Shown here in pieces: positions 59,534 through 63,806 of a DNA stretch of 64,000 nucleotides. Under the pieces are notes generated by a model. That model was not told the DNA's origin. It was given only the letters and a program-made list of their open reading frames with translations, and did no database searches. Origin of the DNA: Streptomyces sp. TP-A0874 (GTDB lineage Bacteria > Actinomycetota > Actinomycetes > Streptomycetales > Streptomycetaceae); NCBI RefSeq assembly GCF_001748085.1, contig NZ_BBZK01000007.1, positions 186,001-250,000 of the forward strand. Reading direction: 5' to 3'. The position numbers were made by a program, and so were the translations under genes. Position 1 is the stretch's first letter, and the number at the start of each line of letters is the position of its first letter.

Positions 59534-59926
59534 TCAGCCGCGCCCGCGGCAGAGTTCCAGCAGGGTCATCGCCAGTGCGGTGCCGGGCTGGCCGAGCTGG
59601 CTCTCGTAGTGGCGGAGGATCTCCATCTCCCGGGAGAGGTTCACCCGGCGACCCCCCGAGGCGATCCGCGCCTGCTGGATCCTGGCCGAGACCGCGATCC
59701 GCTGCTGCACCAGACCGATGATCCGGCCGTCCAGGTCGTCGATCTGCTGCCGGGCCTCGGCGATCAGTCTCTCGGCACCCTCCTCGTGGGCGCCGGTGGA
59801 CGCGCTCGGGCCGGCGGGCTCCGGCCGGCCCTGGGGGGCAGTGGAGCCGCCGCTGCGCCCGTCCCCGCCCACCGCGGTGCTCGGCTCCACAGCGGCGTCC
59901 TGGCTGATCGTGCTGTTCCGGCTCAT
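59534..59926 (-). CDS. Chorismate mutase (AroQ type)
   Basis: The protein is 130 residues from ATG 59926, with ggag well placed upstream on its strand. Residues 1-48 are a disordered Ser/Gly/Pro-rich tail. The AroQ three-helix domain follows from about residue 50 (RLIAEARQQIDDLDGRIIGLVQQRIAVSARIQQARIASGGRRVNLSREMEILRHYES). It includes the Arg and Lys/Arg positions that bind chorismate. It converts chorismate to prephenate for Phe and Tyr synthesis. An attenuator-like leader with a Phe/Tyr-rich peptide and a terminator hairpin lies upstream (59986-60150), implying control by aromatic amino acid supply. Confidence 0.92.
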   Translation of the reverse strand: MSRNSTISQDAAVEPSTAVGGDGRSGGSTAPQGRPEPAGPSASTGAHEEGAERLIAEARQQIDDLDGRIIGLVQQRIAVSARIQQARIASGGRRVNLSREMEILRHYESQLGQPGTALAMTLLELCRGRG

Positions 59927-59985
59927 CGTGCTCTCCTACAAGGTCGCGCCCGACGGAGGAGGTGCCACCCGGAGCCGAGAAACGT

Positions 59986-60020
59986 CGACAGCCCCGGGCG
60001 GTGGTCGCCCGGGGCTGTCG
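59986..60020 (-). terminator. Terminator hairpin in the chorismate mutase leader
   Basis: Arms at 59986-60000 and 60006-60020 are perfectly complementary over 15 bp (CGACAGCCCCGGGCG and its complement) with a 5-nt loop. On the minus strand a GTTT follows. It lies 22 nt after the leader-peptide stop and 59 nt before the gene. The loop region GACCAC could instead pair with GTGGTC in the leader peptide coding sequence. Confidence 0.7.
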
Positions 60021-60041
60021 GTAAGTCGCTTCTCAAGTCGT

Positions 60042-60113
60042 TCAAGCAGCGGGACCACGGCAGCCGGACGGACCGGTGCCATAGGTAAAGACGAAGCTCA
60101 GCTGCTGGAACAT
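60042..60113 (-). CDS. Candidate 23-residue Phe/Tyr-rich leader peptide
   Basis: The frame starts at ATG 60113 and ends at TGA 60042-60044. Its first residues are [11 protein letters not shown], with Phe at 2, 7 and 9 and Tyr at 11. Two of these codons are TTT and TAT, which are rare in this GC-rich genome. It sits directly after a promoter, so the transcript may begin at or next to the ATG (leaderless). The terminator hairpin follows. The layout matches amino-acid attenuators, where ribosome stalling at Phe/Tyr codons would prevent termination. Real translation is not shown. Confidence 0.6.
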
Positions 60114-60120
60114 GGCAGGC

Positions 60121-60150
60121 AGTATGCCTCGGCGGCGGCGCGCCGGACAA
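60121..60150 (-). promoter_or_regulatory. Promoter for the chorismate mutase leader
   Basis: Read on the minus strand, TTGTCC (60150-60145) and CATACT (60126-60121) are spaced 18 nt, close to the HrdB consensus. The -10 ends 7 nt before the leader-peptide ATG (60113), so the first transcribed base is expected at or within a base or two of that ATG. Confidence 0.6.
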
Positions 60151-60246
60151 GCCGGTCCGGATACCGAGACGGAGGGCGGTCCGGGGCCGCGGGCGGGCGG
60201 TAGGCGGCGGGCCGGCAGCGAGTGCCGGCGCGGTCCGTGCCGCCGG

Positions 60247-60252
60247 TAGACT
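60247..60252 (+). promoter_or_regulatory. Candidate -10 element of guaA
   Basis: TAGACT at 60247-60252 is an exact HrdB-type -10 placed 43 nt before the guaA start. The -35 region (about 60223-60228, TGCCGG) is poor. A start near 60259 would give a leader of under 40 nt, too short for a purine riboswitch. Confidence 0.45.
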
Positions 60253-60295
60253 CGGGGGCACCGCATTCCCGTCAGATCCGCCGGAAGGCCGCCCA

Positions 60296-61924
60296 GTGCC
60301 CTCAGCGAACGAGCCCGCAGCGAACGGGCCCGCAGCGAACCCCGCCACCGCCACCGACCGCAGCTCCGGCGTGGTCCTCGTCGTGGACTTCGGCGCGCAG
60401 TACGCACAGCTCATCGCCCGCCGGGTCCGCGAGGCCCGGGTCTACAGCGAGATCGTCCCGCACACCACGCCGGTGCCGGAGATGCTCGCCAGGAACCCGA
60501 AGGCGATCATCCTCTCCGGGGGCCCCTCGTCGGTGTACGCCGAGGACGCACCGGGCGTCGGCCCCGAACTCTTCGAGGCGGGCGTGCCCGTGCTGGGGAT
60601 CTGCTACGGCTTCCAGGCGATGGCCCGGGCGCTCGGGGGCACCGTCGAGCGCACCGGCACCCGTGAGTACGGCGGCACCGAACTGACCGTCTCCCGGACC
60701 GGCTCGACGCTCTTCGAGGGGACCCCGGCCGAGCAGTCGGTGTGGATGTCCCACGGCGACTCGGTCACCGAGGCACCGGCCGGCTTCACCGTCACCGCCT
60801 CCACCCCGGGCACCCCCGTCGCCGCCTTCGAGTCCGACGAGCGGCGGCTCTACGGTGTCCAGCACCACCCCGAGGTGATGCACTCCACGCACGGGCAGCA
60901 GATCATCGAGCACTTCCTGCACCGGGGCGCCGGGCTGGAACCGAACTGGACGACCAGCAGCATCGTCGAGGAGTCCGTCGCCGCCATCCGGGAGCAGATC
61001 GGCTCCAGGCGGGCGATCTGCGGCCTCTCCGGCGGTGTGGACTCCGCGGTCGCCGCGGCCCTCGTCCAGAAGGCCGTCGGCTCCCAGCTGACCTGCGTCT
61101 ACGTCGACCACGGCCTGATGCGCAAGGGAGAGTCGGAGCAGGTCGAGAAGGACTTCGTCGCCGCCACCGGAGTGCAGCTCAAGGTCGTCGACGCCGAGGA
61201 GCGCTTCCTCTCCGCACTGGCCGGGGTGTCCGACCCGGAACAGAAGCGGAAGATCATCGGCCGGGAGTTCATCAGAGTCTTCGAGCAGGCCGCCAGCGAG
61301 ATCGTGGCCGAGGCCGGCGCGGCCGGCGAGGCCGTGGAGTTCCTCGTCCAGGGCACGCTCTACCCGGATGTGGTGGAGTCCGGCGGCGGCAGCGGCACGG
61401 CCAGCATCAAGTCGCACCACAACGTCGGCGGGCTCCCCGAGGACCTCCAGTTCCAGCTGGTGGAGCCGTTGCGGCAGCTGTTCAAGGACGAGGTGCGGAT
61501 GGTGGGCCAGGAGCTCGGCCTGCCCGAGGAGATCGTCCAGCGGCAGCCGTTCCCCGGGCCCGGGCTCGGTATCCGGATCGTCGGCGAGGTCACCAAGGCC
61601 CGTCTCGACCTGCTGCGCGAAGCCGACGCCATCGCCCGCCAGGAGCTGACCGCGGCCGGTCTGGACCGCGGTATCTGGCAGTGCCCGGTGGTGCTCCTCG
61701 CGGACGTCCGCTCGGTGGGCGTGCAGGGCGACGGCCGCACCTACGGTCACCCCGTGGTGCTGCGTCCGGTCTCCTCCGAGGACGCGATGACGGCGGACTG
61801 GTCCCGGCTGCCGTACGAGGTGCTGGCGCGTATCTCCACCCGGATCACCAACGAGGTCGACGAGGTCAACCGGGTGGTGCTCGATGTGACGAGCAAGCCG
61901 CCGGGCACCATCGAGTGGGAGTGA
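60296..61924 (+). CDS. guaA: GMP synthase (glutamine-hydrolysing)
   Basis: This 542-residue protein starts at GTG 60296 behind ggaagg. It aminates XMP to GMP. A class-I glutaminase domain (about 22-210) has the catalytic Cys in [11 protein letters not shown] and the His/Glu pair in [12 protein letters not shown]. The ATP-pyrophosphatase domain has the PP-loop [18 protein letters not shown] near residue 245, and the dimerisation domain follows to KPPGTIEWE. The first 20 residues are an Ala/Asn/Pro repeat encoded by three 15-bp imperfect repeats (about 60302-60342). They make the N-terminus longer than in E. coli (525 residues). Confidence 0.97.
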
Positions 61925-63671: not shown

Positions 63672-63806
63672 ATGTGGAACCAGTGCCAGCGCTGCGAGGG
63701 CAAGGGAAAGTGCACCACCTGCGACGGCTCCGGCTACAGCGGTCTGTGGAAGTGCGACAGCTGCCGCGGCAGCGGCGACTGCAAGGCGTGCGACGGCCGC
63801 GGCTGA
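63672..63806 (+). CDS. 44-residue stand-alone DnaJ-type zinc-finger protein
   Basis: The ATG is 63672, with agaagagga at 63656-63664 as ribosome binding site. The protein consists almost entirely of four C-x2-C-x-G-x-G units at residues 5-12, 14-21, 28-35 and 37-44 (CQRCEGKG, CTTCDGSG, CDSCRGSG, CKACDGRG). This is the two-zinc hairpin of the DnaJ cysteine-rich domain without a J domain or substrate-binding domain. The eight Cys should bind two zinc ions. The motif also occurs in other small proteins that handle unfolded or redox clients. The partner is unknown. Frame extensions upstream are not conserved-looking. Confidence 0.72.
   Translation: MWNQCQRCEGKGKCTTCDGSGYSGLWKCDSCRGSGDCKACDGRG

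Follow-up and report, generated by a model that had tools for sequence, protein, structure and literature searches.

A predicted leaderless Phe/Tyr attenuator precedes the chorismate mutase gene in Streptomyces and other actinomycetes

The chorismate mutase (CM) gene considered here lies at 59534..59926 on the minus strand of a 64,000-nt stretch of the Streptomyces sp. TP-A0874 genome (contig NZ_BBZK01000007.1, positions 186,001 to 250,000; this whole stretch is referred to as the window). Its 130-aa product scores 112.9 bits with NF005894 (cut-off 73) and also 29.7 bits with Pfam CM_2, and its Shine-Dalgarno sequence, AGGAG, is read at 59933..59937. (The same genome encodes a second CM_2-domain protein, at G000:C3:811054-811290 (L001), with a higher Pfam score, 80.1 bits.) Upstream on the minus strand is a sigma-70-type promoter (60121..60150), read from the sequence as TTGTCC (60150-60145), an 18-nt spacer and CATACT (60126-60121), which ends 7 nt before the ATG (60113) of a 23-codon frame (60042..60113). 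Codons 2, 7 and 9 of this leader specify Phe and codon 11 specifies Tyr; codon 9 is TTT and codon 11 is TAT, and the putative regulatory run TTT-ACC-TAT (Phe9, Thr10, Tyr11) occupies 60081..60089. A perfect 15-bp hairpin with a 5-nt loop in the minimum free energy fold (59986..60020) starts 21 nt past the leader stop, is followed by AC-GTTT, and lies 59 nt ahead of the CM start at 59926. Promoter, frame, hairpin and spacing had been proposed from the letters of the window (the original prediction) and were confirmed base by base. On the other side guaA reads divergently from the leader, and the hairpin thus has no same-strand gene immediately upstream to terminate.

The RNA from the leader start to CM (59927-60113) folds more stably than 200 of 200 shuffled sequences (z -5.1). 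Placed within it are a protector hairpin, 1:2 (60055..60084), whose 5' strand contains the Tyr codon; an antiterminator strand inside the leader ORF, region 2 (60058..60074), predicted by folding; and, likewise by folding, a small hairpin around the leader stop (60028..60050), nested within the predicted antiterminator. The 5' arm of the 15-bp terminator hairpin (60020-60006) doubles as the predicted antiterminator partner; all of these are on the minus strand. TTT and TAT are both rare locally: among the 41 Phe codons of the four genes adjoining the leader there is no TTT, and among their 40 Tyr codons a single TAT. A four-part scan (a -10-like hexamer 5-8 nt before ATG or GTG, a frame of 10-35 codons, at least three Phe/Tyr codons in seven, and a hairpin of at least 10 bp within about 60 nt of the stop, this combination having been set after the leader was known) yielded 98 matches, alternative starts counted, in 553,900 bases comprising the window and 80 Streptomyces loci (the best 80 of 193); all 98 carry the CM-leader peptide core, with 0 others. 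Genome-wide, the pattern TTYNNNTAYGGNNCCGG has two matches in this organism, one of them in the CM leader, against three for a reversed control pattern; the covariance model R1 gives the CM leader 131.5 bits and its next best match 23.7. (Elsewhere in the window, at 63672-63806 on the plus strand, is a 44-aa frame rich in CxxCxGxG repeats (MWNQCQRCEGKGKCTTCDGSGYSG...), presumably resembling the DnaJ zinc-finger domain.)

The original prediction had the leader peptide starting without a 5' untranslated region, and the spacing of the promoter agrees with this. A gap of 5-7 nt separates the end of the -10 hexamer from the start codon at 143 of 148 loci of the window's family (f1) and at 57 of 61 other loci, these being the loci that an automatic finder resolved. 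For S. lividans the text of PMC8079986 reports a mean distance of 6.3 nt from -10 element to transcription start, and a purine at 97.1% of leaderless starts. Since the two distances agree, transcription is predicted to begin at the leader start codon.

A search for CM returned 80 loci (the best 80 of 193), all recorded as Streptomyces, one of which (L029) is cut by a contig end. Each of the 79 with intact upstream DNA (79/79, among the best 80 of 193) has exactly one match to a leader core, [Phe/Tyr]-x-Phe-[Thr/Ser]-Tyr-Gly, in the variants F.FTY (73), Y.FTY (4) and F.FSY (2). The hairpin is conserved in the relatives, and the TTT and TAT codons are invariant in these 79 loci and in the window. 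Removal of nine duplicates left an alignment of 71 rows, the window and 70 loci (from the best 80 of 193). Compensatory changes, which the original prediction had named as a mark of a conserved structure, are discernible by eye in the small stop-codon hairpin (L027 and L043).

In the family R1 matches 163 of 200 genomes at E<=0.01, weak false matches included. Among 75 family regions that were fetched, CM lies downstream in 65 of the 65 scoring at least 48 bits and in 3 of the 10 scoring below 40 bits (L182-L184), the other seven (L185-L191) being GC-rich hairpins. Strong or CM-linked matches occur in 16 of 17 genera, genus g14 having weak matches only. CM was searched for in 20 family genomes, 13 of the 37 without an R1 match and 7 with a weak one. 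Twelve of the 13 have no CM above the cut-off either, and the thirteenth (L246) has CM with no leader seen; five of the 7 are without CM, and the other two (L244, L245) have CM together with a leader found by eye. The leader Tyr is replaced by Gln in L178 and by His in L244.

R1 was rejected as a finder beyond the family on the strength of the low-scoring family regions, 7 of 10 of which lack CM, and searches outside the family were for this reason anchored on CM itself. (At E<=1e-5 R1 matches 46 of 296 genomes of the class; in the matches fetched from outside the family, CM lies downstream of L211 (G289), not of L212 or L213.) Inspection by eye of 98 CM loci outside the family found a short frame with an aromatic core in 88, bearing 22 other family labels; five of these are divergent (L298, L312, L343, L348, L358) and in three (L334, L335, L342) the frame has 50 or more codons. 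No aromatic leader was seen by eye in the other 10 of the 98, which are L216 and L217 (family f4, genus g47), L327 (g89), L330-L332 (g94), L329, and L295, L296 and L319, the last three being second copies of CM. The automatic finder, which requires an inverted repeat, resolves 209 of 249 loci (148 of 151 in the family and 61 of 98 elsewhere). Cores differ by family: RRFFYGYR in f4, RFFYGIR in f46, RFFYYGTG in f37, RFFYGSGH in f57, SFFYGHR in f59 and FYGDR in f18. In f4 one CM matches M. tuberculosis Rv0948c at 149.8 bits, and on account of this close match f4 is probably the mycobacterial family. The proposal of a Phe/Tyr leader controlling CM is supported by this comparison, with conservation reaching far beyond the Streptomycetaceae.

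Some loci depart from this arrangement. In L330 a -10-like CAGAAT lies 7 nt before the GTG that opens the CM frame itself; there CM itself looks leaderless, and in L330-L332 (f4, g94) the attenuator seems, from the sequences, to have been lost. L216 and L217 share a stretch, GGTCTGTTTCACGGTGAA, before CM, with no clear hairpin by eye; it is possibly another control element. Four f48 loci (L297, L300, L305, L309) have an extra aromatic residue or pair before FFY, as in RFVTGFFYGTPATAP, which may be a second copy of the sensing site. In the order of G389 (f17), 0 of 41 genomes have a protein above the CM cut-off.

From the Tyr codon onward, the leader RNA (UAYGGN...CCGG) pairs back onto CCGG...CCRU to form the protector hairpin. 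In 89 of the 90 representatives, which span 21 families, the GG after Tyr has a downstream pairing partner, and the pairs that follow it vary across families: C-G 49, G-C 32, G-U 3, U-A 2 and U-G 1 at Tyr+5, and A-U 31, U-G 21, U-A 11, C-G 9 and G-C 9, all four Watson-Crick types, at Tyr+6. (Pairs were read from each sequence's own fold, which builds in complementarity but not sequence change.) Against dinucleotide shuffles the hairpin is significant (p<=0.05) in 54 of 90 representatives and mean z is negative in 21 of 21 families, in a test in which the folded stretch started two codons late in some families. The protector hairpin, as predicted by folding, is one that keeps pairing while its sequence changes.

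The arms of the terminator hairpin are unequally conserved. Three columns of the 3' arm change from C to U in 63 cells of the 71-row alignment (best 80 of 193; the rows are related and the cells therefore not independent), with G-U pairs retained, and the 5' arm, the better conserved, has zero C-to-U changes in the 71 rows. Such a difference would follow if the 5' arm also paired elsewhere. The f46 loci L220 and L225 have a 5' arm, CCGGAGTCC, that is fully complementary to leader sequence GGACTCCGG and imperfectly so to its own 3' arm. With the window's Tyr codon in the ribosomal A site, folding of the free RNA pairs codons 15-19 with the terminator 5' arm, and in the 25 of 71 rows that were folded the antiterminator usually nests the small stop-codon hairpin, with energies of -21.4 to -29.4 kcal/mol. 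In a shuffle test with the ribosome edge at Tyr+6, 18 of 21 families have a negative mean z (family-level p=0.0045); at other edges the family-level p is 0.041 (+9), 0.21 (+3) and 0.36 (+12). Representatives with p<=0.05 number 10, 19, 15 and 11 of 90 at +3, +6, +9 and +12, the corresponding numbers being 19, 24, 21 and 5 of 90 in an earlier four-edge run that, for some families, placed Tyr two codons too late; the first test, at Tyr+12, gave no signal (7/90). The comparison of own-family with other-family leader pairing at Tyr+6 gives 0.61 (p=0.087), and the window's own antiterminator does not beat its shuffled control (z -0.2). Because the ribosome boundary was not fixed in advance, support for pairing of the leader's second half with the terminator 5' arm is moderate. 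The particular antiterminator of the original prediction, GTGGTC in the peptide coding region with GACCAC in the hairpin, was rejected: it occurs in the window alone among the 71 rows (best 80 of 193) and the 209 automatically resolved loci, and the commonest loop is GACAA (45 of the 71 rows, best 80 of 193).

That the hairpin is not a terminator, and that the leader controls translation, through access to the CM ribosome binding site or through reinitiation, is improbable. Just GTTT, and no long U-tract, trails the hairpin in the window, and mycobacterial cysteine leaders are said, in the text of PMC13236596, to act by translation attenuation, both of which would suit such control; but the same hairpin ends in or precedes T runs, mostly of 4-6, in f37, f49, f57 and f59, its 59-nt distance from the CM start leaves AGGAG outside it, and it is the 5' arm, not the 3' arm, that is better conserved.

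Still less credence attaches to a regulatory nascent peptide that would arrest the ribosome on a metabolite, its codons counting only as amino acids. The peptide is unusually conserved in Streptomyces (TF.FTYG..P.GCHGRAA), but its second half is out of frame in one Streptomyces clade, a one-base shift turning it into PVRLPWSCCLSN with the nucleotides unchanged (eight loci, and L018 by eye). Because the frame of the second half is lost there and its nucleotides are retained, the first half of the leader is kept as codons and the second as RNA. Across families it is mainly aromatic residues and the following Gly that recur (FFYGYR, FTYGTG, FYGDR, FFYALT), and in 87 of the 90 representatives, which span 21 families, one or other of the two codons that precede the core Tyr position is TTT, a codon choice that, like TTT and TAT together in all the Streptomyces loci (best 80 of 193), a peptide effect does not require. 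Scarcely tenable is a metabolite riboswitch or protein-binding leader with the short frame incidental: the RNA after the leader stop is strongly conserved in Streptomyces, but outside that genus the conserved part narrows to aromatic codons, hairpin and terminator, with no constant binding core seen, and no Rfam covariance model scores above its curated cut-off over 59800-60300. (The best Rfam match there, F6 sRNA with 28.1 of 46 bits and E 0.0055, lies at 59985-60021 on the plus strand, opposite the terminator, and is probably just the GC-rich hairpin.)

Ribosome-mediated transcription attenuation, tuning CM to the supply of charged tRNA-Phe and tRNA-Tyr, is very likely the function of the leader. 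Several marks of an attenuator are found here: a conserved short ORF with codons for the products, a predicted terminator hairpin, and a downstream gene in the sensed pathway. CM fits as the regulated gene because it starts the Phe/Tyr branch of the shikimate pathway. Promoter, Phe/Tyr frame and hairpins are there to be read before CM, and from them we infer ribosome stalling, termination and a response to starvation. With Phe and Tyr plentiful, the ribosome would reach the leader stop and mask the second half of the leader, the terminator would form and transcription would end. A stall with TTT or TAT in the A site would break the protector hairpin; the freed codons 14-19 (15-19 when stalled at TAT) would then pair with the terminator 5' arm and polymerase would continue into CM. 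If the ribosome were to stall further upstream, or were absent, the protector hairpin would form and termination would be favoured, an effect that is clear by folding in some families only.

The folding in question is a stall scan in which the ribosome is taken to cover 12 nt counted from the A-site codon. (The block assumed in PMC13236596 is 26 nt long, with the codon at its centre.) The share of the terminator 5' arm paired with the leader, as a family mean, is 0.29-0.33 for stalls 9-15 nt before Tyr and highest with the A site at the conserved codons (0.46 at -6, 0.45 at -3 and 0.38 at Tyr itself), after which it drops to 0.20 at +6 and 0.07 at +12. The window itself gives 0.44-0.48 for early stalls, 0.77 at -6, -3 and Tyr, and 0.17 at +12; across f1 as a whole, stalls 9-15 nt before Tyr still leave a large share paired, 0.69-0.80 on average. 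An early-stall effect of the protector is clear only in f4, f49, f50, f52, f58 and f31, and in part in the window. Practically no effect is seen in f54, f56, f35, f21 and f14, at least partly because the script chose the wrong hairpin there.

A more specific version, which we put forward tentatively and regard as somewhat doubtful, makes this a class-wide Phe/Tyr attenuator with a position code, in which a stall at TTT would expose the whole antiterminator strand and a stall at TAT less of it. The conserved TTT sits outside the protector hairpin, and a stall there would break the lower half of that hairpin. If such a code exists, the response should be stronger to Phe than to Tyr shortage, and a stall a few codons earlier should lead to termination. 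Retention of TTT because a wobble-read codon is decoded more slowly is a guess. The geometry of ribosome stalling is directly testable, because the leader is predicted to be leaderless and its codons are fixed.

The word "chorismate" is absent from the main text of PMC1262725, PMC8079986, PMC4046766, PMC4633059, PMC13236596, PMC11109978 and PMC6429828, and the accessible text of PMC11550727 and PMC10272879 does not mention the CM leader. The attenuated loci of Extended Data Fig. 5 of PMC13236596 are unnamed in its legend and could include it. No earlier description of the CM leader was found in the open-access literature searched; the leader is probably undescribed so far, though its class of mechanism is familiar. 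CM thereby gains a likely transcriptional control, and the leader offers a natural Phe/Tyr sensor for actinomycete engineering.

The attenuator of E. coli pheA, which we take to be Rfam Phe_leader, likewise sets a leader with Phe codons (pheL) before a gene with CM activity and follows the same logic of terminator and antiterminator; pheL is preceded by an ordinary 5' UTR, and its codons include some for Phe and none for Tyr. The window leader differs in being predicted to be leaderless, in combining Phe with Tyr, in preceding a stand-alone CM, and in falling below every Rfam cut-off; E. coli pheA encodes a fused CM-prephenate dehydratase, as stated in PMC11802643. A Phe-Tyr-Phe leader (aroR) precedes aroF in C. 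glutamicum (PMC4046766, PMC11802643) and, according to the text of PMC11802643, responds to limitation of Phe and not of Tyr. Compared by description only, it shares with the CM leader an actinomycete host, Phe and Tyr codons and a gene of the shikimate pathway, but it controls DAHP synthase and not CM. Eight leaders, most of them leaderless, precede amino acid genes in S. lividans (e.g. trpL, leuL, ilvL; Table 4 of PMC8079986); as described there they sense Trp, Leu, Ile, Ala, Thr and Met, and none stands before CM. Stav et al. (2019) list two Phe/Tyr uORF candidates before shikimate genes in five genomes (PMC6429828); its main text, by which alone these are set apart from the CM leader, is without Streptomyces, Mycobacterium or Corynebacterium. 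A survey of actinobacteria in 2005 (PMC1262725) reported, in the text available, that conserved RNA structures are missing upstream of phenylalanine and tyrosine operons, and it is with this that the breadth of the CM leader, as a new and widespread case of ribosome-mediated transcription attenuation, contrasts.
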